From a virus: a stretch of DNA of 64,000 nucleotides. Below are positions 14,347 to 56,404 of the stretch, in pieces (position 1 is the first letter of the stretch; the number at the start of each line of letters is the position of its first letter). Position numbers and translations under genes: made by a program. The stretch is from positions 1 through 64,000 of the IMG/VR virus record IMGVR_UViG_3300031951_000121. One strand, given 5' to 3'. The notes below the pieces were generated by a model. It was not told the origin of the DNA and made no database searches. It worked only from the letters and a program-made list of their open reading frames with translations.

Positions 14347-14387
14347 CCAGTCGCGGCTGAGTGCTGACTACACTCGAAGCCCACTGG
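14347..14387 (+). promoter_or_regulatory. structured RNA leader of antirepressor gene (covarying pair, copy 1)
   Basis: Three stacked helices: CCAGT (14347-14351) with ACTGG (14383-14387); GGCT (14355-14358) with AGCC (14378-14381); GAGTG (14359-14363) with CACTC (14371-14375). A CGC bulge lies on the 5' side, and GA and C bulges on the 3' side. The element at 56365-56404 has the same layout with compensating base changes. It ends 28 bases before the ATG at 14416. Unknown class. Confidence 0.7.
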
Positions 14388-14415
14388 ATGTAACTTTAGA
14401 TTGGATAAAGTCACC

Positions 14416-15147
14416 ATGACTAACTTAACATCATTTGCTTTTGATTCGGCTCAAATTCGAGTTATTTATCAAGATGGAGAGCCTTGGTTTGTACTATCTG
14501 ACATCTTGAATGCTTTACAAACCTCAGCGACTCGTGCTGAGTGGAAAGGCGCAGTAATCGAATACTTTGGAGAGGGGGGTGTTATTTCCCACCCCCTTTG
14601 TACGGCAGGAGGAACACAAAACGTACTACTTATTAGTGAGGCGGCAATGACATTTGTTATCTCTCGCAGTCGTACCGAAGTGGGCAAAAAATTCACCCGT
14701 TGGATTCACTCAGAAGTTATCCCCTCAATCCGTAAAACAGGGAAGTATGAGCTTAAGCCCATGAGCCAATTAGAAATCATCGCAGCTTCTGCTCAAGCAC
14801 TTCTAGAGATCGAGCGCAAACAGAAAGAGATGGAAGCACGGTTATCTGTCATCGAGCGCGATCGCGCTCAGGCAGAAGAAGCGTTAAGCGCATTACCCTT
14901 GGCAGAGGAATCGCCTCAAGAGATTCCGACTCGCGGCAAAATTAACATGATAGTACGGACTAAATGCCAAAGAGATGCCCTTACCTACCACTTGGCGTGG
15001 TCTACCCTCTACCAACAGCTTTACTATCGCTACCGCTACGATGTCAAGGCACGATGCCGCAACTCAGGGTTAAAGCCCCTTGATCAAATTGAAAGAGACA
15101 ACATGATGGATGCTTTACACGCGATCGCGTCTGAGGTTCTCGTTTAA
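14416..15147 (+). CDS. BRO-N domain antirepressor-like protein
   Basis: 243 residues from ATG 14416 (CACCATG, matching the start context of the gene at 56337); a TTG at 14401 is possible. The N-terminal BRO-N domain reads IRVIYQDGEPWFVLSDILNA ... LLISEAAMTFVISRSR ... FTRWIHSEVIPSIRKTGKY. A coiled coil (about 115-160) follows, then a C-terminal domain resembling ORF6C-type modules. Such proteins antagonise phage repressors or bind DNA. The RNA leader upstream implies post-transcriptional control, as with other phage ant genes. Confidence 0.8.
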   Translation: MTNLTSFAFDSAQIRVIYQDGEPWFVLSDILNALQTSATRAEWKGAVIEYFGEGGVISHPLCTAGGTQNVLLISEAAMTFVISRSRTEVGKKFTRWIHSEVIPSIRKTGKYELKPMSQLEIIAASAQALLEIERKQKEMEARLSVIERDRAQAEEALSALPLAEESPQEIPTRGKINMIVRTKCQRDALTYHLAWSTLYQQLYYRYRYDVKARCRNSGLKPLDQIERDNMMDALHAIASEVLV

Positions 15148-15232
15148 TCGGATTTTGACTCTTTTCCTTGCAGCGCGATCGCGATCTGCTTTCTTGTACT
15201 ATCTAAGATAGAAGTTTAAAATGGCTTATTCC

Positions 15233-15260
15233 GCCCCTAGTTTAATTTCTAGGGGTTTTC
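15233..15260 (+). terminator. hairpin terminator
   Basis: CCCCTAG / CTAGGGG stem with an eight-base loop followed by TTTTC, 86 bases after the antirepressor gene. Confidence 0.65.
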
Positions 15261-15336
15261 AGTGAATAGTACATTGCAACTATATAAAAAATTTATGCAA
15301 TAAGTTAAAATGGGTAGGTAAACAACCGAGGCAAAA

Positions 15337-15777
15337 ATGAAAGAACATCCTATTTTGTTTAATCCTGAGATGGTACAAGCTATCTTAGAGAGGAAAAAGA
15401 CTCAAACAAGACGGGTCAGTATTCCCAAGTCATGGGAAGTAGGCGATCGCCTTTGGGTCCGCGAGACGTTTTCTCACAGAGGAGAAGAGTTCCCAACTCT
15501 CTACAGGGCAACTTATCCGTTTGATCTCCCCCCAGTTGATTATCTCAATTGGACTGCATCAATCCATATGCCGCGATCGCTATCTAGAATTACCCTAGAG
15601 ATAATTAATGTTTGGGAACATCGACTAGGGGATATATCGGAGCATGATTGCGTAATGGAAGGATTCCCGATGAGAATGGACTTCGTAAGAGCATGGGATA
15701 AATTAGTTAAGCCCGAGTATCGATGGGACAGAAATCCCTTGGTTTATGCCATTAGCTTTATGGTTTTGCCACAATGA
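15337..15777 (+). CDS. ASCH-like phage protein
   Basis: 146 residues. ILFNPEMVQAILERKKTQTR, then GDRLWVRETF and SIHMPRSLSRITLEI are the conserved blocks of a widespread phage protein assigned to the ASCH (PUA-related) superfamily. RNA or modified-base binding is possible. A CGAGG ribosome site stands five bases before the ATG. The stop overlaps the C5-methyltransferase start by ATGA, so the two are coupled, which may hint at a shared link to modified DNA. Confidence 0.7.
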   Translation: MKEHPILFNPEMVQAILERKKTQTRRVSIPKSWEVGDRLWVRETFSHRGEEFPTLYRATYPFDLPPVDYLNWTASIHMPRSLSRITLEIINVWEHRLGDISEHDCVMEGFPMRMDFVRAWDKLVKPEYRWDRNPLVYAISFMVLPQ

Positions 15778-16664
15778 GAACCGCACTAACAATCTTTTCG
15801 GGCGGCGGTCTAGCAGACGTAGGTATCAAAGCCGCAGGATTTAAAGTTGTCGGGGCGATAGAACGCGATCGCCTGATAGCAGAAACCTATCAAGTTAACC
15901 ACGGGGATAATATCCTGATAGAGGACGCATTAGACGTAGACTACTCCCAGTTTCAGGGAGTAGATTTTATCCATGCTTCTCCCCCTTGTCAGCATTATTC
16001 AAAGGCTCGTTTAAGCAGTCTCCCTGACCATCAGGATAAAGACGCGGGATTGGCTGTTATCGCCGCAGCTAAAGCTATCAAGCCAAGATGGATAACCATA
16101 GAGAATGTCCCTGATTATGGCAAGTCAGAAACCTATCGGGTAATCAGGGAATCGCTATGGGAACTAGGGTATTGGGTATCAGACGCGGTAATTAATTTCG
16201 CTGATCTGGGAGTACCCCAAAACCGAAAACGCCTAATTATGATAGCGGCGCGATCGCTCGTTGGCTTCCCGCTATCCCGCCCTCATCGGTCTTGGTACAG
16301 TGCGATCGCTGATTTAATCCCTACCCTACCAATCACTTCTCTGGCAGACTGGCAAGCCAAAAAACTCCCCCATCCTCCCGAGTCACCTTGCCTCATCCCT
16401 CGGGTAGGATGCCATGAGTTTAGATTGATTGATTGCGATCGCCCCGCCCCTACCATCAGGGCATTAGGGCATGATAGAAACTGGCGGCAGTTTGATATGT
16501 TCTCGGGAGATAGTTACAGGATAATCACCCCGCGCTGTGCTGCTCGTTTCCAGTCCGTTCCTGATAGTTTTACGCTTCCAGATAAAAACCCCCTTGCCTG
16601 GAAAATTATCGGGAATGGCATTCCTTGTCAGGGCATGGAGGCGATCGCAAGGTGCTTAAGTTAG
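15774..16664 (+). CDS. C5-cytosine DNA methyltransferase
   Basis: 296 residues. SAM motif FSGGGLADVGIKAAG, catalytic PCQ with Cys72, ENV at 110-112, QNRKR at 149-153 and a C-terminal IGNGIP motif: a complete C5 enzyme. No cognate nuclease is next to it, so it is an orphan methyltransferase. Target not deducible. Because cyanobacterial orphan C5 enzymes methylate CGATCG, the core of HIP1, that site is a reasonable candidate (inference). Confidence 0.92.
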   Translation: MRTALTIFSGGGLADVGIKAAGFKVVGAIERDRLIAETYQVNHGDNILIEDALDVDYSQFQGVDFIHASPPCQHYSKARLSSLPDHQDKDAGLAVIAAAKAIKPRWITIENVPDYGKSETYRVIRESLWELGYWVSDAVINFADLGVPQNRKRLIMIAARSLVGFPLSRPHRSWYSAIADLIPTLPITSLADWQAKKLPHPPESPCLIPRVGCHEFRLIDCDRPAPTIRALGHDRNWRQFDMFSGDSYRIITPRCAARFQSVPDSFTLPDKNPLAWKIIGNGIPCQGMEAIARCLS

Positions 16665-16870
16665 AACAGCACAGGCTGTTAATAGTAGGGCTTGACCATG
16701 ATAAATGCTCCATCTGTGGTTATATCCCTACTTCTTTTCATGTCAAATACCTGTCTACCCTAATAGAGCGAGAGCAGAAAAAAGATAAGCCATCCCAAAA
16801 AGCGATCGCGGAGCTACAGGAAAAGATTAGGAAAGCTAATAAAATAATTTCTAATCATCAATTTGATTAG
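16625..16870 (+). CDS. small protein with CxxC, hypothetical
   Basis: 81 residues; starts inside the methyltransferase gene (40-base overlap), with a GTG at 16652 as an alternative. CSICG near residue 28 and a C-terminal coiled coil (LIEREQKKDKPSQKAIAELQ). Reading frame and position between the methyltransferase and nblA support it. Function unknown. Confidence 0.4.
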   Translation: MSGHGGDRKVLKLEQHRLLIVGLDHDKCSICGYIPTSFHVKYLSTLIEREQKKDKPSQKAIAELQEKIRKANKIISNHQFD

Positions 16871-16879
16871 GAGAATATT

Positions 16880-17044
16880 ATGCAATTAGAACCAGACCAA
16901 GAGTTCAAAATTTATGAGCTAAAAGAGAATGTTAAGTCAATGAGTGAGGCAGAAATCAAGCAGAGATTAACAGAGGTTTACCGAAGCAATATTCTGCTTG
17001 ACAATAAATACAAACCCCTCATTCAAAAAGCATGGGGATTATAG
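16880..17044 (+). CDS. nblA: NblA, phycobilisome degradation adaptor
   Basis: 54 residues from ATG 16880 with GGAG seven bases upstream. The protein matches the NblA layout along its length: QEFKIYELKENVKSMSEAEI, then a helix ending TEVY, then YKPLIQKAWGL, corresponding to EQQF.I..F...V..MS..., LY and LL...WG of cyanobacterial NblA. NblA brings phycobilisomes to the Clp protease, freeing amino acids and lowering light harvesting. Phage copies are known from Microcystis and Planktothrix phages. It lies behind the methyltransferase genes on the same strand. Confidence 0.85.
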   Translation: MQLEPDQEFKIYELKENVKSMSEAEIKQRLTEVYRSNILLDNKYKPLIQKAWGL

Positions 17045-17212
17045 CCCATTTAGGTGCTGATACATAACAGCAGGAAAGTTTTCTGTAAGGGATTGCTCAA
17101 TATGGAATAATACATTATTACGGTCTACGGGCATCCCCCTTCTTTCCATCTGTCTAGTGGTTTCTGCGATCAAAAACCCGATTAAATCTTTATGTCTCTG
17201 ATTATTATCCAT
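17039..17212 (-). CDS. small hypothetical protein
   Basis: 57 residues from ATG 17212 (MDNNQRHKDLIGFLIAETT). Its start codon overlaps that of the divergent plus-strand gene in a single CATG. It ends tail-to-tail with nblA, overlapping by six bases. Resembles small cyanobacterial proteins of unknown role; no motif recognised. Confidence 0.4.
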   Translation of the reverse strand: MDNNQRHKDLIGFLIAETTRQMERRGMPVDRNNVLFHIEQSLTENFPAVMYQHLNGL

Positions 17213-17420
17213 GACTAGATACAATAAAAAATTAAGAAGTCAGTTATTAGATATTCTAGAGGAAACTCCGCAAACAGCGCGACAACTAAGCGATAAACTC
17301 AAGGTATCTCGCTCCGATATAGTCCGTGAGTTATCCTTGATGGCTCAAGAGAATTTAGTCGTCAGCGATCGCGTGTGCGGGCAGAACCTCAAGGAGTATT
17401 GGATCTTTACTTCTCCCTAA
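17211..17420 (+). CDS. winged-helix DNA-binding protein
   Basis: 69 residues. TARQLSDKLKVSRSDIVREL is a helix-turn-helix, followed by a wing-like strand (LVVSDRV...EYWIF), as in small MarR/ArsR-like or Rrf2-like folds. Start ATG 17211 lies head-to-head with the minus-strand start in one CATG. Could regulate itself or the divergent gene. Confidence 0.6.
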   Translation: MTRYNKKLRSQLLDILEETPQTARQLSDKLKVSRSDIVRELSLMAQENLVVSDRVCGQNLKEYWIFTSP

Positions 17421-17580
17421 AGAAATTACCATTTAATAATGCTAACCCTCCTCCCACCAGCATAGAAACGATGGTGACAGAATGCACTTCATCAAAATAT
17501 TTAGAAGGGAAATAATACGCGATCGCGCCTAGGATTAAACAGAACGCGCCTAGTAAATCACTTTTAGTAATTCTATTCAT
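17407..17580 (-). CDS. small two-helix membrane protein, holin candidate
   Basis: A 57-residue frame from ATG 17580. Two hydrophobic segments (LLGAFCLILGAIAYYF and VTIVSMLVGGGLALL) are separated by a short polar loop, with a charged tail (FFREK): class II holin-like topology. It overlaps the upstream head gene by eight bases, so it is translated with the head genes. Confidence 0.5.
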   Translation of the reverse strand: MNRITKSDLLGAFCLILGAIAYYFPSKYFDEVHSVTIVSMLVGGGLALLNGNFFREK

Positions 17581-18028
17581 TTTCTAATACCTCAAAATAT
17601 CCTGTGATTTTTTGCCCTAATACTGCGTCTATGTCGATGGCTTCATCTAGAGCAGTTGGCAAGCTGTCTAAATTATAAAATCTTCCTTTTCTCCAATTAC
17701 CTTGATAGAGATACTCAGCGTCAGCTTGGCGCGGGAGGGGATTCTCGTAGGTGAATGGGTCAACTAAATACCCCTCAACGTACACCCTGCCGATATTAAG
17801 ACCAGGGTTAACCGTTGTCATGGTGTTAGGGTCTTTTTTCGGGGTGAACTTTACGAACAGGGTAATTTCCTCCTCCTCGCTAGGGATAGGATTCCCCCAT
17901 TGATCTTCTTCTAAATCCCCTGAATAAACGAGAAAGATAATTTTCCCGTTATGCGATTGTAAAGCCCCTCCCGCCAATCCCGCGATCGCTTCCTGAGTCG
18001 CTGTATACAATCCTGATAAGCTATACAT
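17573..18028 (-). CDS. head-tail region protein, hypothetical
   Basis: 151 residues from ATG 18028, chosen because AGAGG stands four bases upstream; the frame extends further to a weak start. Acidic and strand-rich (GKIIFLVYSGDLEEDQWGNP, VGRVYVEGYLVDPF-like run). Its position just after the DUF4054-like connector gene suggests a head-tail joining protein, such as a stopper. Family not recognised. Confidence 0.45.
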   Translation of the reverse strand: MYSLSGLYTATQEAIAGLAGGALQSHNGKIIFLVYSGDLEEDQWGNPIPSEEEEITLFVKFTPKKDPNTMTTVNPGLNIGRVYVEGYLVDPFTYENPLPRQADAEYLYQGNWRKGRFYNLDSLPTALDEAIDIDAVLGQKITGYFEVLENE

Positions 18029-18053
18029 ATAACCTCTTATTTTTGTTAACAAT

Positions 18054-18281
18054 ATGACAGGCAAAGCTAAAGATTTAATCCTTAATCCTGCTAACAATAA
18101 CCCTACTCGTAGCTTGACTATCAGCGCGATCGCTTCTGTAGATGACCCATTTAGTTTGCAGGACAGGAGAGATTTTAAAGCTTCGATTAGGGCTACCTAC
18201 CGAGCTAATAATACTCATATTTCATTTGAGATGTCAGAGAAGGAAATGAAAGCAGAAATAGGTATTAAGAAGGAATGGTGA
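18054..18281 (+). CDS. small hypothetical protein
   Basis: 75 residues on the plus strand, squeezed between two minus-strand head genes; it stops right at the end of the connector gene. Polar, with SLTISAIASVDDPFSL. Divergent by 25 bases from the gene starting at 18028. No family; kept because it fills the gap without overlap. Confidence 0.35.
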   Translation: MTGKAKDLILNPANNNPTRSLTISAIASVDDPFSLQDRRDFKASIRATYRANNTHISFEMSEKEMKAEIGIKKEW

Positions 18282-18623
18282 TTAAACCACGTCAAAGCCG
18301 ATAACCCCTACAGCTTCTTTCCTTAATGCCAGAAATTCCCTCCCGTAGGGCGTAGATTTTAACCATTCGTCTGTATCCTCAAATATGGTGGCATCCTCCC
18401 CTACCTCTATCGATTTAACGCCGCTAGTTAGTCTCAATTGAAGTTGCATATTCACCTGTAACAGATGAGCCGTGTACACCTTGACCGCGCGATCGCGTAG
18501 GTCTAGCCACGTATCTTCAGCAATAACCAATTCGGCATCGTCGATGAACTCGGCTATTTGAGCATCGGCTAATGCTGAAAATTGAGGATACCGATTCCTA
18601 ATATTGTCAGGGGTAATAGCCAT
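18282..18623 (-). CDS. DUF4054-like head-tail connector
   Basis: 113 residues. ITPDNIRNRYPQFSALADAQ, then a helical core (IAEFIDDAELVI, AVKVYTAHLLQVNMQLQ) and a C-terminal loop with YGREFLALR, the layout of DUF4054/gp6-type adaptors that ring the portal. It lies three genes after the capsid gene on the same strand, the usual place for this protein. Confidence 0.7.
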   Translation of the reverse strand: MAITPDNIRNRYPQFSALADAQIAEFIDDAELVIAEDTWLDLRDRAVKVYTAHLLQVNMQLQLRLTSGVKSIEVGEDATIFEDTDEWLKSTPYGREFLALRKEAVGVIGFDVV

Positions 18624-18665
18624 AAAAATAAACCCCTCTAGGAGGGGAATTGCGCAAGGAGTTTC

Positions 18666-19112
18666 TTACAACATACCACGCTCTAAGTTGGCTACCCTTT
18701 CGGATAACGCCTTAACTATCGTGGTATTGGTCGTGTTATCACGCCAACGAGTTAGCAAAGCGCGATCGCTGACGAAATTAATCAGTTCTTTCGCGTCTGC
18801 TAGGGCATAGGTACGGGCTAGGTTATCTTCAGCATAATCTTTTTGGGGGTAGGATACTAACACCCCTTGAGATTGATATTTAGCTGCGCTAGGCATGGTC
18901 AGAGTGGATTCAAATCGTGCTGAATCAACATTCTGATTGATGCCAGGCAGAAGCATTAAAAAATCGTATCTCCCATTATCAGAGTTCCAGCCCTGACACA
19001 ACGACAAAGACGCGATCGCCTTGGTATTGCCGTCATGACGGGCTAGGTTATTGTCTCTTTCTGGGAGATAAAAAACAGTGACTAAGGTTCTAGTTTCTGT
19101 TGTAGTGGTCAT
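18666..19112 (-). CDS. head-region hypothetical protein
   Basis: 148 residues, four bases after the capsid gene's end. Begins TTTTETRTLVTVFYLPERDN. Mixed strand/helix; no family recognised. Placement between capsid and connector genes suggests a capsid accessory protein. Confidence 0.45.
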   Translation of the reverse strand: MTTTTETRTLVTVFYLPERDNNLARHDGNTKAIASLSLCQGWNSDNGRYDFLMLLPGINQNVDSARFESTLTMPSAAKYQSQGVLVSYPQKDYAEDNLARTYALADAKELINFVSDRALLTRWRDNTTNTTIVKALSERVANLERGML

Positions 19113-19116
19113 AGGA

Positions 19117-20184
19117 TTAAGACTTAGAATAAACTAATCTTACAGCAGTGCCACCGCGTTTATAGGCAATTCCTGCGATGTCCCCATGCACATTAATCCG
19201 ATAGCCATCGTTAGTTTGAATCGGATCTTTGTAGGTTAAATCTTTAGGTATTGCTTGCTCTACGCATTCCGCAGATCGGCAGAACATAACCGCAGCATAT
19301 TCAGTAGACGAGTAATCGTCAAGCCTTGCGCTTTCTGCAACCTCAAAATTGCCAATTTTACCCCCGTCAAACATGACAGTACGGCGATTCTCTTGAAACC
19401 ATCCTAGAGTTGATTTGTCACTAGGAGAAGTGCCGAGCCGTTGCATGGACAGGATCTCCATAGTGGCAGTAGGAAGAACCAAGGTAGATGGTCTAAAAGT
19501 ACCCTTGGTACGAGCAACAATTGACTGAGCAGCAGCAGCTAGAGCGGCGATATTCTGATCTGCGGTTCTTGCGGCGTTAATGGGAGCGTCTAGGGTGATA
19601 TGGTCAATGTCAGGATGATTCATAAAGCCGAAAATACCGAGACTTGTTACCCCATTACAGATAATTTCATCTCGTTTCGCTGCCCATGCTCTAATAGCTG
19701 ATTGGCGTTTTTCCTGCATTAAATTGATAGTTCCCGCAACTCCATAGCTTCCAGAAGTAGCAGCAAATCGAGCCAATCTATCTAGCTCTAAATCGCTGAT
19801 CTCAAAGTGTCCTGCGTAGCGTTGTACCTTTACCTCAATGTTTTGAGTGCCAACGTCAAGCCGTCCTTTGTTGTCGCTCGATTCGGCATTCACAGGCACT
19901 AATTCCCCTGTATAGCTAACCCGTTGATACACAAGCTTATCCGTGCCAGCAGCCTTAAAGGGGTTAATGGGAATATAATCTGCCCAAAATTGCCCATACT
20001 GCATATCGTAAATTGTGGGCATCAAACTAATCAGAGAACCTTCGGGAAGCGAGGCACTATCATTAGTTTTTAGGCTGTCCTTTACGAACTTTCTAAACTG
20101 TCCAGATTTGTCGTAGTTGACCATCGCCGCGATCGCCTGATTAATTAGGAGGCGAGGATCGTCACTTTTTCTCAATTGAAACAT
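19117..20184 (-). CDS. major capsid protein, DUF2184 type
   Basis: 355 residues. Fits the HK97-fold DUF2184 capsid family: KLVYQRVSYTGELVPVNAES, VQRYAGHFEISDLELDRLAR, AKRDEIICNGVTSLGIFGFM, and a C-terminal GYRINVHGDIAGIAYKRGG. It assembles the icosahedral shell. Genes for a decoration protein (upstream) and connectors (downstream) flank it on the same strand. Confidence 0.82.
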   Translation of the reverse strand: MFQLRKSDDPRLLINQAIAAMVNYDKSGQFRKFVKDSLKTNDSASLPEGSLISLMPTIYDMQYGQFWADYIPINPFKAAGTDKLVYQRVSYTGELVPVNAESSDNKGRLDVGTQNIEVKVQRYAGHFEISDLELDRLARFAATSGSYGVAGTINLMQEKRQSAIRAWAAKRDEIICNGVTSLGIFGFMNHPDIDHITLDAPINAARTADQNIAALAAAAQSIVARTKGTFRPSTLVLPTATMEILSMQRLGTSPSDKSTLGWFQENRRTVMFDGGKIGNFEVAESARLDDYSSTEYAAVMFCRSAECVEQAIPKDLTYKDPIQTNDGYRINVHGDIAGIAYKRGGTAVRLVYSKS

Positions 20185-20197
20185 TTATCATCACCTC

Positions 20198-21073
20198 CTA
20201 GGCGGGTAAATTAAGAGCTAAATCAGCGACTAGGTAGCCATCAACCGTGTAGTTAATGGATTCAAACCTAGCGCCCGTAACCTGAGCTAATCCCGTACCA
20301 GACGCATTAGAAACCGCGCCTAACTTAGTTAACGCTCCATTAGCGGTATGGCGAACGTAAACAGCATCGCCGTACTTAATAGTTAGTGCAGAGTCTAACT
20401 CAACCGTTCCAACTCCTTGAGCCAGAATATCTACAATGTCACCACGACGATAAGAAGGGACTAGAATCCCGTCCTGATAGGGGACAAATGCCGAACCGCC
20501 AGCCAGCCCGAAGATGCGGGTATTAGCCGAGTTAGGCAGTCTACAGGGAGGAGTATTTCTATCAGTTTGAGCATCGGCGGCGTTAGCTCCGACTAATCGC
20601 CCGTAGGGGATAGCAGCCGTTTCTGTGGCAACCTGAGAGCCACCAGTCCCATCAGTGGTCAGCGTTCCGCCAGTACCAGAGTACGAGATAGAGAAGTTGT
20701 CACCAGGGAACTTACCCGTAATAGTCACGGTGGCACTGCTGACAGTCGCGACAACCCGAGCCGCGATCGCAATCCCTGCTGGGGCTGTGCCACTAGCACC
20801 AGATACCGAGTATTCCGCGTTGATGGCATCGGCGATCGCGGTGGCAGTAGCCGCGTCAGATCCGCCGGTCGCCACGGTTAGGGTTACACCTTCGATGACA
20901 ATTGTGTGATTGCCCGAAGCGGTGTCAAGCTCCAAAACCGCAATCTTAGGCAAATCAGCCGCTACGTTAATCGCGTTCATGGTGCGGACTTTCTGGGAGA
21001 ATAGCCCTACACGGCGAGGCAGGACATCGTAGTAATTGGTTTGGGGTTTACCCGAGTAGTTGAGGATAGCCAT
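20198..21073 (-). CDS. head decoration / structural cement protein
   Basis: 291 residues. An N- and C-terminal cement-like core (LPNSANTRIFGLAGGSAFVP, YRRGDIVDILAQGVG, DAVYVRHTANGALTKLG) is interrupted near residues 45-150 by a Thr/Ala/Gly-rich strand insert (TIVIEGVTLTVATGGSDAAT). Cement proteins stabilise capsids. The position directly before the capsid gene fits. The insert could be a surface-exposed Ig-like domain. Confidence 0.65.
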   Translation of the reverse strand: MAILNYSGKPQTNYYDVLPRRVGLFSQKVRTMNAINVAADLPKIAVLELDTASGNHTIVIEGVTLTVATGGSDAATATAIADAINAEYSVSGASGTAPAGIAIAARVVATVSSATVTITGKFPGDNFSISYSGTGGTLTTDGTGGSQVATETAAIPYGRLVGANAADAQTDRNTPPCRLPNSANTRIFGLAGGSAFVPYQDGILVPSYRRGDIVDILAQGVGTVELDSALTIKYGDAVYVRHTANGALTKLGAVSNASGTGLAQVTGARFESINYTVDGYLVADLALNLPA

Positions 21074-21074
21074 C

Positions 21075-22304: not shown

Positions 22305-22384
22305 TTTTTTAGCAGGACTCTTACAAAGAAGATACTTCTATATTAGTATAAGTATAGATTAAGTACAATATACGAGAAAAGATT

Positions 22385-25384: not shown

Positions 25385-25395
25385 AGGGTATTATT

Positions 25396-45468: not shown

Positions 45469-45497
45469 ATTAAATGATTACCAAAAAGGATGGATAG

Positions 45498-46703: not shown

Positions 46704-46712
46704 CGATCGCTT

Positions 46713-46785: not shown

Positions 46786-46849
46786 AAACGAGAGAGCGAT
46801 CACGGTCATGGCGCACGGCTAGGCTGAACAGGAAAGACTAGGAGGAAAA

Positions 46850-47098: not shown

Positions 47099-47171
47099 CA
47101 TCAGGCAAGCGATCGCGCCTTATCCCCTGATACAGTTTTGGTACGATGGGGAAAAGTGACTGCGAGAAAAG

Positions 47172-47831: not shown

Positions 47832-48033
47832 ATCTTGGTATTATATTGGAGCTACAGGGCTAGGCACTATTATCAATTACTGCTCATTGGATATTTCTGC
47901 TATGCAGTTTTCTGTCCCGTCAGTAGATGTTAATTACTGCTCATTGGATATTTCTGCTATGCAGTTTTCCGTTACTTCGACAGATATTAACTACTGCCCT
48001 TTAGACACTACATCTATGCAATATCAGGCTTAA
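47824..48033 (+). CDS. small tail-region protein of three 19-residue repeats
   Basis: 69 residues from ATG 47824, overlapping the DUF2793 gene end by eight bases. Three units begin NYC(S/P)LD and contain SAMQFSV-type strands, encoded by 57-bp DNA repeats starting near 47875, 47932 and 47989; the third is diverged. A surface-exposed or adhesin-like element is plausible. Repeat copy number could vary between isolates. Confidence 0.55.
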   Translation: MPKSWYYIGATGLGTIINYCSLDISAMQFSVPSVDVNYCSLDISAMQFSVTSTDINYCPLDTTSMQYQA

Positions 48034-48036
48034 ATT

Positions 48037-48924: not shown

Positions 48925-51377
48925 TGAGACTAGAAATAAATGAAGAGGTAGGGCAGTCAATATCTCTGACCTTTAAAAACGATATTACAACCCGACCTAA
49001 CGGAGGAGCATCTATTAATGTTCCTACCCGTAATTGTCGTATTGAAATCGACTTTTCTAAAGCTTTGTTCTATAGCTCGATCGCGGACTACCTTTTTACT
49101 TTTCAGCAACAGGTAGGGGGACAAGAGCAGGTATTCCGATTCAGAGATCCGAGTGATAACCGTGCTGAATCGGAGGAGTACGATACCGAACTAGGAATAA
49201 TAACCCAAGGGGTACTTTTACCCGCGCCTGATGGCACTAGGACTGAGTTTCAACTGTTCAAGCTTTATCAATTAGGAGATAACAAATACTATCGCCCTAT
49301 CACCCGCCCAACGGGGGAGGATTTAGAAATATTTAAAGACGCGATCGCTACTACTGGATTCACTCTAGAAGATGAGACGGGGGCAGTCACATTTACCGCC
49401 GCGCCGCTAGAGGATGAGGTTTTAACATGGTCAGGAAGTTTTGATATTCCCTGTAGGTTCGCTGACCCAGTGAATGTCGGAGTAGAAACCTTGGTTTACT
49501 ACGATGAGGGCGATGATTCCGAGTACCTTTACCAGATGCCCAATCTAAAAGTTATCGAGGTTAAAGAAGCGATCGCGGTTGAATACGAGAACACGACTGA
49601 GAGCCGATACGAGCATGATTTTCAGTTGGATTGGTCGTATAATTCGGTAGTTTATCCTGTCCATTCAACCGCTATAGATGAGCTAGATAGTGGTTTTGAG
49701 AATAGGATAAATCAAGGTATTTCCTCGATGGCGAGGGTATCTACCACGTCTCAAGAGTTTTACTACCAAAATCAAATAGAGTACCTAATTGGGCTGTATC
49801 GGCTCTGCTACGGCACGGGGAGCAGCTTTACTTTTGCCGATACCACTGGCTACACAAGGAAGGTAATTAACACGGGATTATCCGATGTCTTTACTAACAA
49901 AATGCTCGTGAGATTTTCCCAGCCCCTGACCATATCGGTACTCAGAGAAGACGAGAGCGATCGCAGTGCTGCTTTATTCCGAGTTGGGTCAATGGAATTA
50001 AGACAAACTAACGTGCCAGAGGTGTACAGGGAGAGTTTTACGCCGATAGATGGCGAAGAATACGCCCTGATAGAGGTATATCATGTCTTTGGCAGGTATT
50101 TCACTAATTTTGGTCCCGCAGTACAACCCGATAACGTTGAACACGCCTACTGGAGAACCTTTTTACCTATTTTAAATTGGGATGGAGGGATTCAAATAAC
50201 GGGGAGAGAGATTGCAGGAGAGCCCCGATTTCTGACTTCTTTTTATGAACAAAGCGTGCAATATATCTCAATATCAGAGGAAGAATTTAACGACAACTCT
50301 TTTTTTCGATATTCTGGTACTCCCTTCGGCGGGTCGTTTTATTGGACTCCTCCCCCTCATCCTCCCGCTAACAGCGCGGGTAATCTTCTTCGGGGCAACA
50401 CCGAAACTATCCACAAAACTGCCAGCCTTACTGATGCCTGTCAAGCTGCTCTAGACGCGATCGCGCCCGAGAATTTTACTGTAACCAACATAAGTACAAT
50501 TCTGACTAATCTCGGTTATTTTGATGCGATCGCGGGACTGGCTACTGAATATAATCATTTAACTCGATTAACACAGTGGTGTCATTGTTGGTTAATAACG
50601 AGAGAAGACGAGACAGAATTAGGCTTTACTGACCACGATATTACCCTGACAATTGACGGAGTGGAGTACGACTGCCAAGCAGGTTTTAATGGAGACGCGA
50701 TCTCTCTTTCTACCAAGGTTGAGGATAAGAATACCGAGGTTAAATCCTTCTTTACTGCTACGGTTAATGAGGAGGATGTTCTCAAGGGGAAATATCGTTA
50801 TGCAAGCATAAAAGTGTTTGCTTACGATTGGCAGAATGGAGAAACTATCAGAGTCTTATTTAATGGCTATATCTCAGATATAAATCTAGAACATGATGTG
50901 AATGGAGCGTTAAGATATACGTTTAGTGCCGTTTCTAATGAGAACCGATTAGAGCAAAAAGCGACTAGGGTAACTACTCGTACCTGCCCTTATAGATTCG
51001 GGGACGCTGACTGTCAAAAAGACTTGACCAATCTAACGGATACCCTAACGGTAACTAACACTTCTAATTTAGTTTCTAGCAGCAAAATTATTTATGCCCC
51101 ATCTTTACGAGACGATGGATTTTATAACAACGGAGTTATGACTTTTGAGACAGGCAACCTAGCAGGAATATCTAGGGATATTGTCAGTTATGCCAATGGA
51201 GTATTCACCCTCTGGCAAGCACTCCCCCTCATACCTTCCGATGGTGATACCTTCACCGCGATCGCGGGTTGTGATAAAACTATTGACGATTGCAAGGGAT
51301 ATAATAACTTTGTTAACTTCGGCGGTCAGCCCTATATACCAGGCACAGATCGCCTTTACAACGGAGCGGATACTTAA
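48924..51377 (+). CDS. fused DUF2460-DUF2163 distal tail/hub protein
   Basis: 817 residues. N-terminal ~230 residues follow DUF2460 (GTA gene 12 distal tail: NCRIEIDFSKALF, FRFRDPSDNRAESEEY). A second, similar strand-rich segment and a ~120-residue insert follow. From ~540, LTQWCHCWLITREDETELGF with TDHDITLTIDGVEYDCQAGF is DUF2163 (gene 13), and the end (CDKTIDDCKGYNNFVNFGGQ) is the BR0599/gene-13 C-terminal block. In GTA-like phages these are usually separate genes. The protein joins the tail tube to the megatron. Confidence 0.8.
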   Translation: MRLEINEEVGQSISLTFKNDITTRPNGGASINVPTRNCRIEIDFSKALFYSSIADYLFTFQQQVGGQEQVFRFRDPSDNRAESEEYDTELGIITQGVLLPAPDGTRTEFQLFKLYQLGDNKYYRPITRPTGEDLEIFKDAIATTGFTLEDETGAVTFTAAPLEDEVLTWSGSFDIPCRFADPVNVGVETLVYYDEGDDSEYLYQMPNLKVIEVKEAIAVEYENTTESRYEHDFQLDWSYNSVVYPVHSTAIDELDSGFENRINQGISSMARVSTTSQEFYYQNQIEYLIGLYRLCYGTGSSFTFADTTGYTRKVINTGLSDVFTNKMLVRFSQPLTISVLREDESDRSAALFRVGSMELRQTNVPEVYRESFTPIDGEEYALIEVYHVFGRYFTNFGPAVQPDNVEHAYWRTFLPILNWDGGIQITGREIAGEPRFLTSFYEQSVQYISISEEEFNDNSFFRYSGTPFGGSFYWTPPPHPPANSAGNLLRGNTETIHKTASLTDACQAALDAIAPENFTVTNISTILTNLGYFDAIAGLATEYNHLTRLTQWCHCWLITREDETELGFTDHDITLTIDGVEYDCQAGFNGDAISLSTKVEDKNTEVKSFFTATVNEEDVLKGKYRYASIKVFAYDWQNGETIRVLFNGYISDINLEHDVNGALRYTFSAVSNENRLEQKATRVTTRTCPYRFGDADCQKDLTNLTDTLTVTNTSNLVSSSKIIYAPSLRDDGFYNNGVMTFETGNLAGISRDIVSYANGVFTLWQALPLIPSDGDTFTAIAGCDKTIDDCKGYNNFVNFGGQPYIPGTDRLYNGADT

Positions 51378-51760
51378 TGGAATTTGGCTTAGATTTACGG
51401 ATTATCACTGCTAGTAATTCGTCTGTGATTAGTGTGGCATTTAATGACTTGATTAATTATCCGTGGTACGTCGAGAATCTTTTATTTGATAGCGTAAAAC
51501 CTTTGGATGCGACCAGGCTACTCACATCAGAGTATATTGCTTCCGTGCCTAATACTGTATCCAAGGAAGATTTAATCGCCCTCCTGCCCAAAATTACAGC
51601 ATTCACCTTTGATTCTGCCAACAATAAGGGAGTTGCCACCATCGTAGTAGCCGAAAGCGAACTCAACGGGTTGGTCAAGGTGCAAGAAACCGACACCGCG
51701 ATCGCGTTAGCGATGCCCAAGGCAGAGGATGTGATAAATTACTTACTAGGAAAAAAATAA
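51377..51760 (+). CDS. hypothetical tail-region protein
   Basis: 127 residues, ATG overlapping the hub stop (TAATG). Ordinary composition (LINYPWYVENLLFDSVKP); unrecognised. Last gene of the plus-strand distal tail run. Terminator follows. Confidence 0.45.
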   Translation: MEFGLDLRIITASNSSVISVAFNDLINYPWYVENLLFDSVKPLDATRLLTSEYIASVPNTVSKEDLIALLPKITAFTFDSANNKGVATIVVAESELNGLVKVQETDTAIALAMPKAEDVINYLLGKK

Positions 51761-51780
51761 CTAGACTCATCAGGTGTACC

Positions 51781-51811
51781 AAACCCAAGGATTAATCCCC
51801 TTGGGTTTTCT
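51781..51811 (+). terminator. hairpin terminator of distal tail operon
   Basis: AACCCAAGG ... CCTTGGGTT with TTTCT after it. Confidence 0.75.
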
Positions 51812-51870
51812 ATGTATAATTAAAGTGTGCGTGATTTGTATAGCTGTTTTGTTTTTTATTTTGAACTACT

Positions 51871-51894
51871 AAAAAAGCGGGTTTTTGCCCGCCT
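51871..51894 (-). terminator. minus-strand terminator
   Basis: GCGGG...CCCGC with TTTTTT on the minus strand side; ends the RebB-like gene unit. Confidence 0.65.
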
Positions 51895-51926
51895 TTTGCA
51901 TTTAAGAGAGTAGTAGAAGGATTGGT

Positions 51927-52238
51927 TTAGTTCCCAGTGGTAGGGGGAGTAGTCTGCGCGGCTTTATTCGCAATTTGAGCGGCGGCAGGATCAACTTGAC
52001 GCATGGCTAAGCCTTCAGTGTAAGAAAACTTTTGAATCCCTGCAATAGTCGCACCTAAAGCAGCTTCAGCGATCGCGTCTACACGGGATGTGGTTTTGTT
52101 GTATTGAATGGAAGCCGCATTATTTACCGCTTCAGAATGAGCCAAGGACTGGAGTAAAAGAGTTGCGGGAGCATCACCGAAAGCCTTGATATTAGCACCA
52201 GCTACGCTGGCTTCTAAATCTTCTAATTTAAAAGGCAT
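51927..52238 (-). CDS. RebB-like (R-body family) protein
   Basis: 103 residues. GANIKAFGDAPATLLLQS and LAHSEAVNNAASIQY, followed by an alanine-rich part, resemble RebB-family proteins ('NxKxxGxAPAxxxxxxY/LxxxAHSxxxxxxNA'). R-body proteins of Caedibacter and relatives polymerise into ribbons. No full reb operon is visible; this could be a small structural or signal protein instead. The gene unit continues upstream into two small genes on the same strand. Confidence 0.45.
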   Translation of the reverse strand: MPFKLEDLEASVAGANIKAFGDAPATLLLQSLAHSEAVNNAASIQYNKTTSRVDAIAEAALGATIAGIQKFSYTEGLAMRQVDPAAAQIANKAAQTTPPTTGN

Positions 52239-52272
52239 AAACCCTCTAGAGTGTTAACAGAGAACATATTTA

Positions 52273-52590
52273 TTATATGGGATTCCCGTGTTCTATCTCA
52301 TAAACTAATGCGATCGCTTTTTTGTAGGTATCGAGAACTTGGCTGTAATCTTTTTCGGGATTACCTGCTATCTCAGAGAGGAGATAATCTAACCCATGAG
52401 AGCTTATGGATTCTTTGAGCAGATCGAGCCTTGCCTCTCGTTTGAGCTGTTGATAATCACGGGCTACCTGTACATTTTGTTTCCGTAGTTCCCTAGACAT
52501 TTTTGCCGCTAGTCTTAGCTTTTGTTCGGCTAATGCCATTGATTCTTTCTCTATTGCCAAGACTTTTTCTTGCAGTTCTAACTCTTCCAT
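52273..52590 (-). CDS. coiled-coil protein
   Basis: 105 residues from ATG 52590 (AAGGA six bases upstream). Helical throughout, mostly coiled coil (LQEKVLAIEKESMALAEQKL and KMSRELRKQNVQVARDYQQ). Eight bases after the neighbouring gene. Unknown; possibly a scaffold with the RebB-like protein. Confidence 0.5.
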   Translation of the reverse strand: MEELELQEKVLAIEKESMALAEQKLRLAAKMSRELRKQNVQVARDYQQLKREARLDLLKESISSHGLDYLLSEIAGNPEKDYSQVLDTYKKAIALVYEIEHGNPI

Positions 52591-52598
52591 TCTTGTCC

Positions 52599-52787
52599 TT
52601 ACTCCCCCTTGCAATCAGGTGTTCTGAAAGGGCTGTCTAGCTCTGCGCTACTATAGTATTGAACAACCCACATTCCTTTAGTAGGGAATATAGAGGCAAC
52701 TTCTCTCGTCACCCCTTTATCGTCTTTTAAAAATAGGCTAAACCCTGACTTCAGGGTTAAAACCATTGGTAGGGCTTGATCTTCCAT
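52599..52787 (-). CDS. small hypothetical protein
   Basis: 62 residues; strand-rich (VLTLKSGFSLFLKDDKGVTR, WVVQYYSSAELDSPF). First gene of the trio ending at 51927. Divergent from the RusA gene by 23 bases. No family. Confidence 0.45.
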   Translation of the reverse strand: MEDQALPMVLTLKSGFSLFLKDDKGVTREVASIFPTKGMWVVQYYSSAELDSPFRTPDCKGE

Positions 52788-52810
52788 GCTATTAATAACC
52801 AGAATGCTTT

Positions 52811-53203
52811 ATGCCAATTTTATCATTTACCCTCTACGGCGATGTTGTTCCTAAAGCCCGTCCTCGGCTTGGGAGCGATCGCGCCTATCTTCCTCCTAAA
52901 TATCGTCACTGGAAAAATAACGCGATCGCAGAACTCACAAAACAAAGGGAAGGAATGGAGGTTAATTTTCCCTTGCATGGAGTCGCGATCGCGATTGTTC
53001 TTAGAGGAAAGCACCATCGAGGTTCAGATATTGATAATATCGCAGGTTCTCTATTGGATGCTTTAGTTCAAGCTCATATCCTCAAAAACGATAATATGAG
53101 CGCGGTAACGGAGCTAAGTATTAGATTGCATCATGGAGAGGATGAGCCGAAGATATTTATTGAAATTCTCTCAGAGATGCCATCTCCTCATACTCAGAAA
53201 TAG
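52811..53203 (+). CDS. rusA: RusA-type Holliday junction resolvase
   Basis: 130 residues. PKARPRLGSDRAYLPPKY opens the fold; HRGSDIDNIAGSLLDAL has Asp73 and Asp75; KNDNMSAVTEL has Asp94, matching the catalytic aspartates of E. coli RusA. It cuts four-way junctions during phage recombination or packaging. The gene stands alone on the plus strand and its end overlaps the next minus gene by 47 bases. Confidence 0.9.
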   Translation: MPILSFTLYGDVVPKARPRLGSDRAYLPPKYRHWKNNAIAELTKQREGMEVNFPLHGVAIAIVLRGKHHRGSDIDNIAGSLLDALVQAHILKNDNMSAVTELSIRLHHGEDEPKIFIEILSEMPSPHTQK

Positions 53204-53438
53204 GCAGTAATTCCCCTTTGATTTGTATCTTTCCTTCGGGGGTAACGTTGCTGGGGTCAGGAGGTTTTAATATTTCTACTTCTGCCATAAGGGCATCTTC
53301 TTTAGTCGGATACCTGCCGATTATTCGCCCTGTTTCTCTGTTCCATAAGATAAAATCATCCTCATTTGGGTCATAATCAATCGCGTCTAATAGGCTATCA
53401 ATTACAATGGAATAATCACTATTTTTAGGTTTTATCAT
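53157..53438 (-). CDS. small hypothetical protein
   Basis: 93 residues from ATG 53438, which shares a CATG with the divergent plus-strand ATG 53437; a longer frame to 53585 exists but would overlap that gene. Sequence VIDSLLDAIDYDPNEDDFILWN and GRYPTKEDALMAEVEIL look like a small ordinary protein. Unknown. Confidence 0.45.
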   Translation of the reverse strand: MIKPKNSDYSIVIDSLLDAIDYDPNEDDFILWNRETGRIIGRYPTKEDALMAEVEILKPPDPSNVTPEGKIQIKGELLPISEYEEMASLREFQ

Positions 53439-53760
53439 GAGTGAATCCACTACGACTAAAAGAAGAACTACTCCTAGTATAGACTCTCCGCCTTCTACCT
53501 CAATCCCTGCCAATATTTCTCCCGCGATCGCTGAACCATCGGAATCGGAAGAAGAGCCTACCCAACTAACCCCGAGCGAAGACAAGACCGTCTGGGTAGT
53601 AAGTCAACGGTATGGCACGGCAGTAGCGATTAATGGAGTCTATGGCTCTGAGGAAAAACTTCTCGCAAAATATCCGCATCTTCGGGAAGAAGGCACTCTA
53701 TATCGAGATTGCGATCTCTCGGGCAATGGGTTGACAGCGCGTAAGTTTATAATCAATTAA
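53437..53760 (+). CDS. small hypothetical protein with disordered N-terminus
   Basis: 107 residues. A Ser/Thr/Pro/Glu-rich first half (TTTKRRTTPSIDSPPSTSIP) then a folded part (VWVVSQRYGTAVAINGVYGS). Starts in the same CATG as its minus-strand neighbour. No family; the disordered half covers the neighbour's upstream region. Confidence 0.45.
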   Translation: MSESTTTKRRTTPSIDSPPSTSIPANISPAIAEPSESEEEPTQLTPSEDKTVWVVSQRYGTAVAINGVYGSEEKLLAKYPHLREEGTLYRDCDLSGNGLTARKFIIN

Positions 53761-53779
53761 AGAGTTTTTCCATTCCCCT

Positions 53780-53803
53780 ATCCCCTCTCGCAGGGGATTT
53801 TTT
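53780..53803 (+). terminator. hairpin terminator
   Basis: TCCCCT-ctcgc-AGGGGA followed by six T. Confidence 0.75.
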
Positions 53804-53975
53804 GTTATGCGATCGCGATCTGCACCTATCTATTCCCTAAGATGGAAAAACAAAAGAATTAAGTACAGACATAAGGTTGCGACAATCAGACTGCCCGTAA
53901 CCTTGTGCTTGTACTATTGTAACGTGCTTTTTTTGCATTAAGATAGTAGCACAAGTTATTTCATGAATACATTAA

Positions 53976-54938
53976 TCAAGTAATGGCATCTCCGAGCAAT
54001 GAAGTCACCTCTCCCTGATAAGAATTTCTGTTGTCGTCATAAATCATTAGTGTGTTTAAGTCCTTATGACGGCTTAGGGATTGTACTTTTCTTACGTTTC
54101 CATTCGTCATGTCTAATGCGGCTGTAATTGCAGAATGCCTCAGTCTTGATGGAGAGACAGCTTTATTTATTCCTGCTTTTTGAGCATAGAAGTTAACGAT
54201 TTTGTATACGCTAGTTCCACTTAGGCGATGCCCCATTGTAGCCCTATCGAGTGAACAAAACAATGGGCGATCGCTATATTGATGGACGGATTTCCACTGA
54301 AGAGACATTTTTGCTGTTAACCATAACTGAATTGAGTCAACGACATGGTTATTTAGCTGAACACGAGTAAGATCATTCCCATTGTTTTTCCCATTGACAT
54401 ACAAACTTTTTTGCTCTGCATTAAAGTGAGGATGAGATAGATTTCTTAGCTCTGCATTTCTTAGCGCATTGTCCCATAACAACCTTAAAATTGCATAATC
54501 TCTAATCCCCAAAATCTTGCTTGTGTCTACTTGGCTTATTAATTGGATAAATTCTTCTACCTTTAACCCTGATGTATCCTTATATCTCGGGACGGTTGAT
54601 TCTTTGATGGAAGACAAGTCAATTGAGCATTTTCTCTTGTCAATAGCGTATTTAACTAGCTCTTTGATAGCAATCATTCTTACAGCTATCGTAGATGCTT
54701 TACGCCCATCTTGAATCATCTGCGCTCTATATTTATCAATGACGATTAATGCTTCTTCTTGCGCGAGAGACAGAAAAAGTTCTATGTTAGAGTCACAAGC
54801 ATCATCTCCTGTGACAGTCCTGCAAAAATGATTTAGTGCTGATTGATAAGTGCGCTTTGTTGTAGGGGATTTTTTGCTCAGCAGAAATCCCGCTAGGATT
54901 GGTTCATGAGCGTAACTAGCAAATGCGTTCATATTCAA
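53976..54938 (-). CDS. tyrosine recombinase (integrase)
   Basis: 320 residues. N-terminal SAM-like core-binding domain (about 12-105), then the catalytic domain with Arg160 (NALRNAELRNL), Lys184 (NGKNNG), Arg267-His268 in SRLRHSAITAALD, His291 (SRHKD) and Tyr300 (LMIYDDNR). The first His of the usual HxLRH is Ser264. It would integrate and excise the phage; no partner excisionase is obvious. The 3' side (53804-53975) is the likely neighbourhood of the attachment site, but no tRNA or duplicated core is visible there. Confidence 0.9.
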   Translation of the reverse strand: MNMNAFASYAHEPILAGFLLSKKSPTTKRTYQSALNHFCRTVTGDDACDSNIELFLSLAQEEALIVIDKYRAQMIQDGRKASTIAVRMIAIKELVKYAIDKRKCSIDLSSIKESTVPRYKDTSGLKVEEFIQLISQVDTSKILGIRDYAILRLLWDNALRNAELRNLSHPHFNAEQKSLYVNGKNNGNDLTRVQLNNHVVDSIQLWLTAKMSLQWKSVHQYSDRPLFCSLDRATMGHRLSGTSVYKIVNFYAQKAGINKAVSPSRLRHSAITAALDMTNGNVRKVQSLSRHKDLNTLMIYDDNRNSYQGEVTSLLGDAIT

Positions 54939-54967
54939 GAGTGCGTTTTTACAGAATTATCTTACTC

Positions 54968-55402
54968 TTAGTCTATCAATTCTCTGCTTGAGAACCTGGG
55001 GATTAATTGTAACGGTTCATCCCCATGCGATCGCGCTACCATTGATAAAGGTTCTCGCCCCTCATCGGCGCATTCTGGACAGATAAAAGCGAATCCGTAT
55101 TTAATTTTCCCGCAGTCTTCTCCTCTGCAATACGACCAATAATAATCATCCATCCCATCAGGGAGCGGAACGTCTAGTTCTACCCTTAAATCAAGCGCGG
55201 GGAAAATATCTCCACAGCAACAACACGGGATAGGAGCACGGGGCGGGCTAGGGGAATCAACGTCAATAACAATTGCTGGGTATTTATTGCCACTGATGGT
55301 GCTGTATTCTACGTTATAGAACAGGAAGTGAAGGCTACCGTCTGGCTGTTCCCACGTTTTCTGCTCTCTCGTCTCGTCTCGGTATTTGTGTTTTCTGATC
55401 AT
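54968..55402 (-). CDS. zinc-binding protein, hypothetical
   Basis: 144 residues with IPCCCCGDIFPALDLRVELD, YCRGEDCGKIKYG and ICPECADEG: three cysteine groups for zinc. Lies directly upstream of the integrase on the same strand (29 bases before). Possibly a regulator of integration; unproven. Confidence 0.55.
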   Translation of the reverse strand: MIRKHKYRDETREQKTWEQPDGSLHFLFYNVEYSTISGNKYPAIVIDVDSPSPPRAPIPCCCCGDIFPALDLRVELDVPLPDGMDDYYWSYCRGEDCGKIKYGFAFICPECADEGREPLSMVARSHGDEPLQLIPRFSSRELID

Positions 55403-55488
55403 GGGTATTTACAAAAAAATCCCCTTGGTAGAGGATAGAAACGGTAGCAGCTAACAACTGATTATTCAAGATAGAAACATCTTACCAT

Positions 55489-56337
55489 TTACTCCGATTC
55501 TCCAATGTACATCTGACGGCTATCAATTAGCAGGGCATGGTCTAACAGGTGCAGGTATTCTCGTTTAAATTCTAGGTTTTCCCGCAAGGATGGAATCGTA
55601 TCCCAATATTCAGGAGCAATTAATCTATGCTCCGTTAGCAACTGATTAAGCCGTCTGTAGTCAGGGCTTCCATTGCGGGTTAAAATCCCGTATCTCTGAC
55701 AAAGTTGCGTCTTGTTAATCGTCTCTCCATTGCGGATTACCGTCTCGCTAGTGTCAAGAATGCGATCGCGGTATTCAATAGTCTTAACTTCCTTATACCC
55801 TAGGATTTTTTGCTGTAGGGGTTCAGGGAGCGCGGTAACGATGTACTGGCGTAATTCTATAGCTTTCTGGTCTGCTTGCGCTCTGATAGCCTCATTTTTG
55901 GATATTTCTACCTTCAGCTTAAGCACCTCGATTTCTTCCGCTACTTCGGGGCGATGAGACTGAACTAATTTCCAAGCTTTTTCCGCCTCGATAAAATACT
56001 GTCGGATTAATTCTCCCTGCTCGGTTTCTGCCATCAGGCAAAAATGCTTAAAAGCATCGGTTGTTAATAGTATCAAATCGCTAGAACGCCCACACAGTCC
56101 TGATTTATCCGATTGGATAAAAACTTCCCCTTTTTGAATCTGGTAATCACGGGACTCTTTTAAGAAAGAATTTCTCATTGTCAACTTTCTTTTGGCATTC
56201 CCTTTGTTGCTATATCCTGCGATTTTCCAAGCATCATCGAAGTTAACAGGGAACTGCTCTCCCTCCTCTTCTGCCTTGAGCCAAGAGTTAACTAGGCTTT
56301 CGTAACGGTTAGGATCAAAATCTGCTAAATTAGACAT
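55489..56337 (-). CDS. AntA/AntB-type antirepressor
   Basis: 282 residues. N-terminal AntA domain: FPVNFDDAWKIAGYSNKGNA, DYQIQKGEVFIQ, LLTTDAFKHFCLMAETEQGE, YFIEAEKAW. Then a coiled coil (about 128-170) and a C-terminal domain (TQLCQRYGILTRNGSPDYRR, LNQLLTEHRLIAPEYW). Antagonises phage repressors. The RNA leader upstream is shared with the BRO-type gene at 14416, so the two antirepressors are likely co-regulated. The last ~25 residues are polar. Confidence 0.82.
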   Translation of the reverse strand: MSNLADFDPNRYESLVNSWLKAEEEGEQFPVNFDDAWKIAGYSNKGNAKRKLTMRNSFLKESRDYQIQKGEVFIQSDKSGLCGRSSDLILLTTDAFKHFCLMAETEQGELIRQYFIEAEKAWKLVQSHRPEVAEEIEVLKLKVEISKNEAIRAQADQKAIELRQYIVTALPEPLQQKILGYKEVKTIEYRDRILDTSETVIRNGETINKTQLCQRYGILTRNGSPDYRRLNQLLTEHRLIAPEYWDTIPSLRENLEFKREYLHLLDHALLIDSRQMYIGESE

Positions 56338-56364
56338 GGTGCTTTACGCTCCAATAAAGTACAG

Positions 56365-56404
56365 CCGATAGGTTTCGAGTGCTTCCACACTCAACCGTGA
56401 TCGG
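56365..56404 (-). promoter_or_regulatory. structured RNA leader of antirepressor gene (covarying pair, copy 2)
   Basis: Minus-strand helices CCGAT/ATCGG, GGTT/AACC and GAGTG/CACTC with CAC, GA and T bulges, the same plan as at 14347-14387. Stem bases differ between copies but pairing is kept. Ends 27 bases before the ATG. Confidence 0.7.

Follow-up and report, generated by a model that had tools for sequence, protein, structure and literature searches.

Two antirepressor genes of one phage share a structured leader

The stretch analysed here, hereafter the window, comprises the first 64,000 nucleotides (nt) of an IMG/VR virus record of 67,356 bases (IMGVR_UViG_3300031951_000121). It encodes a terminase, a portal protein, a head protease, a major head protein, tail proteins, a replicative helicase and an integrase; because structural, replication and integrase genes are all present, the window is probably a temperate tailed phage, and both its frequent GCGATCGC sites and its relatives indicate a cyanobacterial host. 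The subject of this work is a short structured element that lies directly upstream of two unrelated antirepressor genes in this phage. The BRO-type gene (14416-15147, plus strand) encodes a protein of 243 amino acids, which matches Pfam Bro-N (E 1.4e-11) and a PHROG anti-repressor family (E 2.8e-31). The AntA-type gene (55489-56337, minus strand) encodes 282 amino acids, matches PHROG anti-repressor Ant (E 1e-6), and is located upstream of, and in the same orientation as, an unknown gene and the integrase gene (53976-54938). Both leaders follow a predicted promoter. For the BRO-type gene this is a -10-like hexamer, TACAGT (14334-14339, plus strand), which a consensus promoter scan did not flag and which places the predicted transcript start just 5' of the leader hairpin; for the AntA-type gene it is the hexamer TAGTAT (56412-56417, minus strand). 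Just upstream of the latter, a long hairpin of 17 pairs with an AT-rich tail (56429-56465) is terminator-like on the minus strand.

A previous inspection of the window (the sequence-only reading) had proposed that the two leaders (14347-14387, plus strand; 56404-56365, minus strand) fold into the same stacked helices with identical bulge positions. RNA folding recovers both structures with the proposed stems: CCAGT/ACTGG in one leader corresponds to CCGAT/ATCGG in the other, GGCT/AGCC corresponds to GGTT/AACC, and the GAGTG/CACTC hairpin is identical. The two leaders also agree in having a 3x1 internal loop (CGC/C, CAC/T) and a GA bulge. We refer to this hairpin as P1. Three parts of the present analysis go beyond that reading, namely a second hairpin, P2 (14390-14414; 56362-56339), the spread of the element to many phages, and the strand on which it is likely to act.

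The leader belongs to a widespread RNA family

A covariance model was built from 17 leaders, including both of those in the window, which score 68.1 and 48.8 bits (E 8e-16 and 8e-11). Of 47 phage or genome records, 28 contained matches to the model, 39 copies in all and up to three per genome, as in Planktothrix phage PaV-LD. The sequence-only reading had considered that such a search might return only the two window leaders, or that their likeness might reflect recent duplication with random drift; with 39 copies found, these possibilities, and that of a chance pair of hairpins, were rejected. The architecture occurs upstream of AntA-like protein homologues in PaV-LD, in IMG/VR contigs and in cyanobacterial genomes, with quite different stems, and follows a constant order: outer stem, CGC/C internal loop, inner stem, GTA, short second hairpin, and CAC adjoining the start codon. 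Among cyanobacterial genomes, 4 of 386 contain one match each. Two other phyla, represented by 299 and 300 genomes, gave no match to the model, an empty result that is weak evidence.

Pattern scans of viral contigs, with the outer stem, the CGC loop and GTAA as the sole constraints, returned 48 distinct places, and the inner stem, left free, splits them clearly: all four pairs form in 41, three in another 3, and none or one in the rest. CAC was also free in these scans, and nearly all true places still have it. A looser descriptor, with no requirement for the inner stem or the P2 arms, found 59 places, from which 52 distinct leaders with at least three of four inner pairs were accepted, all from cyanophages and a few cyanobacterial genomes. 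GTA and CAC are anchors of this descriptor, and their invariance, including a conserved G-U at the third pair, arises by construction. The CGC internal loop is kept in 46 of the 52 leaders, and each of the 52 has a TATAAT-like hexamer at a distance of 5-15 nt before the outer stem; the hexamer matches exactly in 31 leaders and deviates at one position in 16 and at two in 5.

The exact core TGAGTG..CACTCGAARCC was tried as a family signature and rejected: its 23 places in viral contigs look like chance matches without leader context, which indicates that the primary sequence is not conserved. Blast searches with the leader DNA in phages and plasmids returned only PaV-LD and chance matches. Rfam gave no gathering-level match for the window or for 20 loci, and nothing relevant nearby at relaxed E-values. 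The openly readable literature consulted here contained no account of antisense RNAs or structured leaders for cyanophage antirepressors. The RNA family is real, widespread, and absent from all libraries searched here. One contig labelled Flavobacterium sp. MAG (L047) carries a typical cyanophage leader and antirepressor, and is probably a misbinned cyanobacterial or phage contig.

Covariation in both hairpins

Compensatory changes are pervasive across the family and support the earlier proposal of a covarying structured element common to unrelated antirepressor genes. In the alignment of 17 sequences, 98.9% of cells pair, and both sides change in 11 of 13 pairs. A plain MAFFT alignment of the full antisense RNAs misplaces the 5' arm of P2, and pair counts were made on loop-free cores; these cover 40 distinct antisense cores, in which pairing is seen in 96.2% of the pair cells and both sides change in 13 of 17 pairs. 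The covariation score of these cores is 0.577, compared with 0.155 after shuffling (0/500), a value that is partly circular for the outer stem, whose pairing was part of the search. The P2 arms, which were not selected for pairing, form 4.0 of 5 pairs in their native combination and 2.4 when swapped (0 of 10,000 permutations). These shuffles and permutations leave the relatedness of the sequences in place.

The hairpins point to an RNA on the opposite strand

The sequence-only reading had taken the element to be primarily a motif of the mRNA leader. This view finds no support here, since pair usage, folding, an extended -10 and a U-rich tail all point to the opposite strand. Read as mRNA, the variable positions of P2 outside its anchored ends comprise 103 Watson-Crick pairs, 16 A-C, 1 G-U and 10 others, and the A-C share of the non-Watson-Crick pairs is 0.59, where permuted arms give an expectation of 0.29 (0/5000). 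Because A-C on the mRNA strand is G-U wobble on the antisense strand, the latter appears to be the RNA strand. P2 has a pairing probability of 0.93 on the antisense and 0.57 on the sense strand, with the antisense value higher in 52 of 52 leaders, and P2 alone folds with -6.2 and -2.1 kcal/mol, respectively. In the window, fold z-scores on the antisense strand are -4.31 for the BRO copy (0 of 200 shuffles as good) and -4.35 for the AntA copy (0 of 200 shuffles), versus -2.24 and -2.31 on the sense strand.

Signals flanking the hairpins agree with this orientation. An antisense -10 hexamer with at most one mismatch is present in the first codons of 60% of the copies, compared with 9% of 1298 control open reading frames (ORFs). 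An extended -10, TGnTAnnnT, precedes GUG on the antisense strand in 26 of 42 copies (62%; for example TGCTAAATTATTCAT-GTG) and in 70 of the 1298 control ORFs (5.4%), an excess with a Fisher p of about 4e-21, relatedness not corrected; the spacing is most often 7-8 nt. Beyond P1, the antisense tail is U-rich (T 0.63-0.79 at positions 2-5), and both P1 copies of the window are terminator-like on the antisense strand. P2 covers the Shine-Dalgarno sequence and ends adjoining the start codon, and the predicted antisense RNA begins at its first base. An anti-Shine-Dalgarno stretch is present in 40 of 42 copies, and at least two of its bases are unpaired in 17. The conserved architecture, the covariation, the strand preference and this geometry are all features of the aligned sequences.

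Several observations weigh against an antisense RNA. P1 shows a slight asymmetry in the reverse direction, with four G-U and one A-C among its sense-strand pairs, and its conserved internal loop (GCG/G on the antisense strand) is not needed by a plain terminator. In some copies the U tail is short or interrupted, and the antisense -10 of the BRO copy in the window is weak. Similar first codons are also found in some homologous genes without this leader, so that part of the promoter signal is owed to protein-level constraint or shared descent. Finally, a good sense-strand promoter is present and P1 folds on both strands, and the mRNA leader could thus act too.

A predicted cis-encoded antisense RNA

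We consider it likely, on balance, that the element is a cis-encoded antisense RNA gene of ~70 nt, complementary to nearly the whole leader of the antirepressor mRNA, which represses translation like sar. We infer its transcription, termination, pairing and repressive action from the features described above. Transcription would be driven by the extended -10 promoter within the target gene's first codons and would begin close to the G of GUG, at 0-3 nt before the start-codon complement. The RNA would consist of the 5' hairpin P2 (GUG...UAC, the anti-Shine-Dalgarno sequence frequently lying within or beside the loop), two linker bases, and P1, which together with the U-rich tail would form an intrinsic terminator. 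Its 3' end would fall roughly at the 5' end of the target mRNA, and the RNA would thereby be complementary to almost all of the 5' leader, with the ribosome-binding site included.

In the window, the two predicted RNAs (14414-14339 and 56339-56412) lie opposite the leaders of their putative target mRNAs and reach to 1 nt before the start codon. The RNA of the BRO-type gene would be about 70-76 nt long (14339-14414, minus strand), with its 5' end near 14414 and its 3' end in the U-rich tail near 14339. Its P2 (14390-14414, minus strand; GUGACUUUA-uccaauc-UAAAGUUAC) has a predicted 9-bp stem and, when read as mRNA, overlaps the ribosome-binding region; P1 (14347-14387, minus strand), the 3' hairpin, is followed by CTTTTCT. 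The predicted extended -10, TGTTAAGTT (14422-14430, minus strand), is the weak one mentioned above and lies inside codons 3-5 of the gene. For the AntA-type gene, the predicted RNA is about 66-74 nt long (56339-56412, plus strand), with P2 (56339-56362, plus strand; GUGCUUUA-cgcuccaa-UAAAGUAC) carrying the anti-Shine-Dalgarno CUCC in its loop and P1 (56365-56404, plus strand) as the 3' hairpin, followed by TTTTTCTATA. Its predicted extended -10, TGCTAAATT (56323-56331, plus strand), is likewise located inside codons 3-5.

Such an RNA may be made in the lysogen or early in infection. By binding to the leader of the antirepressor mRNA across the Shine-Dalgarno sequence, it would block translation, keep the antirepressor low and favour lysogeny. 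Owing to the A-C/G-U asymmetry, P2 would be stable as part of the antisense RNA but weak as part of the mRNA, which would stay open as long as no antisense RNA is bound to it. Within a genome, the predicted duplex of a cognate pair is far stronger than those with paralogues; in the window, for example, the values are -148 kcal/mol with the cognate leader, which reflects perfect complementarity by construction, and -68 kcal/mol with the paralogue. The copies may therefore act largely independently.

Comparison with known phage RNAs and control elements

The sequence-only reading had stated that the motif matches no known small RNA. This holds for Rfam, but the layout resembles that of sar from phage P22. 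In P22, the sar annotation covers 15021-15090 of the minus strand and adjoins ant, which begins at 15091. The sar promoter, Psar, reads TGCTATACT-ATTCAT-G (TTGCTATACTATTCAT-G), and two hairpins form in the RNA, of which the second is a terminator. The predicted cyanophage RNA thus shares with sar a length of about 70 nt, a position antisense to the ribosome-binding region of an antirepressor gene with the RNA start just upstream of the start codon, an extended -10 (TGCTATACT in P22) inside the first codons, and two hairpins ending in a terminator. The 5' hairpin of sar also has CUCC near its loop, as in the AntA copy of the window. The systems differ in that P22 Ant belongs to another protein family (P22_AR_N/C), that P22 has arc between promoter and ant whereas the cyanophage antisense gene fills the 5' leader, and that cyanophages have several copies per phage, attached to unrelated genes. 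The cyanophage covariance model gave no match in the P22 region. Judged by layout, the best reading is that the element would work like sar, and we group it with sar by its presumed mode of action, not as a member by descent.

Other systems are less similar. The c4 RNA of phages P1 and P7 is an antisense RNA that prevents translation of an antirepressor, has the bases complementary to its target in loops, and is listed as trans-acting (PMC12197685), whereas the predicted cyanophage RNA is encoded exactly opposite its target and has no Rfam match. The aba element of the prophage defence genes of BstA (KilA-N type) acts as DNA and needs terminal CCCGCC direct repeats (PMC8585504). Like the cyanophage element, it is short and located at the start of a KilA-N-related phage gene, but the cyanophage element is structured and covarying; paired CCCGCC repeats were not apparent by eye in the listed leaders, for which no systematic motif search was run. 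The glnA, Downstream-peptide, manA, wcaG and PhotoRC motifs are structured RNAs, some in cyanophages, that occur with metabolic or photosynthesis genes (PMC2864571); the present element has no Rfam match, and that study makes no mention of antirepressors.

Alternative explanations

An alternative that keeps the function on the sense strand is a translational operator or riboswitch, in which P1 of the mRNA would bind a protein or ligand at the CGC/C loop and P2 would then open or close over the Shine-Dalgarno sequence. The leader does start at the predicted mRNA 5' end, the outer stem of P1 is strong on the sense strand (probability 0.99), the internal loop is conserved (CGC in 46 of 52), and P2 overlaps the Shine-Dalgarno sequence. 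As an expression-platform hairpin, P2 covaries, yet it is much weaker on the mRNA strand, where it is marginal and has A-C mismatches at positions that are G-U in the antisense RNA; the extended -10 in the downstream codons and the U-rich tail would also be left unexplained. The operator model was demoted because the A-C/G-U count went against it, and we judge it unlikely.

Two further explanations dispense with a regulatory RNA. The element might be a DNA site, either an operator for a repressor or for the encoded protein, or a self-immunity site like aba, which overlaps the start of bstA (PMC8585504); the downstream proteins are indeed of DNA-binding types, some of them BstA-like. Against this, the arm sequences change freely and the spacing of the P2 arms varies widely, and such variable loop lengths suit an RNA better than a DNA operator. 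The conserved bulges are moreover asymmetric, the preference for G-U on one strand is a property of RNA, and the terminal repeats of aba are not apparent by eye in the leaders; a DNA element seems very improbable. Least probable to us is a plain 5' stabiliser of the mRNA or a recombination joint, conserved only because antirepressor genes exchange at this stretch. Unrelated genes may show identity across promoter, leader and the first 5-8 codons, after which it stops, and modules have clearly been exchanged; exchange alone, however, yields neither compensatory changes in both hairpins nor an antisense promoter.

Downstream genes and module exchange

The proteins that begin at the ATG of the leader belong to unrelated families with KilA-N, Bro-N, AntA, Rha, P63C or GIY-YIG-like domains, or to phrog_32599, and some of the KilA-N members resemble BstA. 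The similarity of the two window loci begins at the promoter and continues past the start codon as far as about codon 6; beyond that point it drops to 26%, which is the level of chance. Unrelated genes elsewhere may likewise have the leader and the first 5-8 codons in common and nothing further, which indicates a modular exchange of leaders and genes. In the pair L206 and L211, the break in identity lies between P1 and P2.

The members of phrog_32599 (about 175 amino acids) are repeatedly preceded by the element (L163, L187, L195, L199, L203, L211 and L213) and are probably phage regulators. Copies are also located 5' of a GIY-YIG/T5orf172-like gene and of an endonuclease-like zinc-finger gene (L239:4308-4750; L251, minus strand), which shows that the cassette is not limited to antirepressors. 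In phage CL131, a copy (L162; MG209611.1, 64479-64544, minus strand) lies directly 5' of a TnpB-like 'transposase OrfB' gene, which is not an antirepressor. The PaV-LD antirepressor (L030:3004-3798) is annotated as two ORFs (ORF099R and ORF100R) owing to an in-frame stop, and the leader precedes the first.

A broader picture, which we advance tentatively and regard as possible rather than probable, is that of a movable cassette, made up of promoter, antisense RNA gene and first codons, that has become joined to unrelated regulators of many kinds, and to nuclease-like genes as well, and is present in several divergent versions within one genome. Silencing by each RNA would be much more effective on its own gene than on paralogues, providing parallel, largely independent switches for lysogeny or defence; the conserved GCG/G internal loop may be recognised by a factor that controls them jointly.

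Other leader classes and significance

Two other structured leaders were observed 5' of AntA-like genes. The first (L027:2900-3000, L088, L101 and L102) has the form AAGTG-CCTCCAG..CTGGAGG-ACTTTAA-CACTT, followed by GCCT..AGGC over the Shine-Dalgarno sequence. In L088, L101 and L102 the first codons hold a -10-like hexamer, TACAAT, on the antisense strand; this leader is possibly another class of antisense RNA. The other, a third leader class, is found in Aphanizomenon phage CL131 (L031) and in L094, L096, L098 and L113. It has an outer stem AACCAG/CTGGTT and covarying inner stems, and the first codons contain TGTTAAAAT or TGATATATT on the antisense strand.

Antisense control of antirepressors is known from a few enterobacterial phages. 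With the present analysis, a sar-like layout becomes a family among phages whose hosts are bloom-forming and filamentous cyanobacteria and whose control of lysogeny is little understood. The family is suitable for annotation libraries, and it provides a clear case in which the usage of A-C versus G-U reveals the strand of an RNA. Its members represent a control cassette that moves between unrelated regulators, and they offer short, testable targets for the lysis/lysogeny decision of cyanophages.

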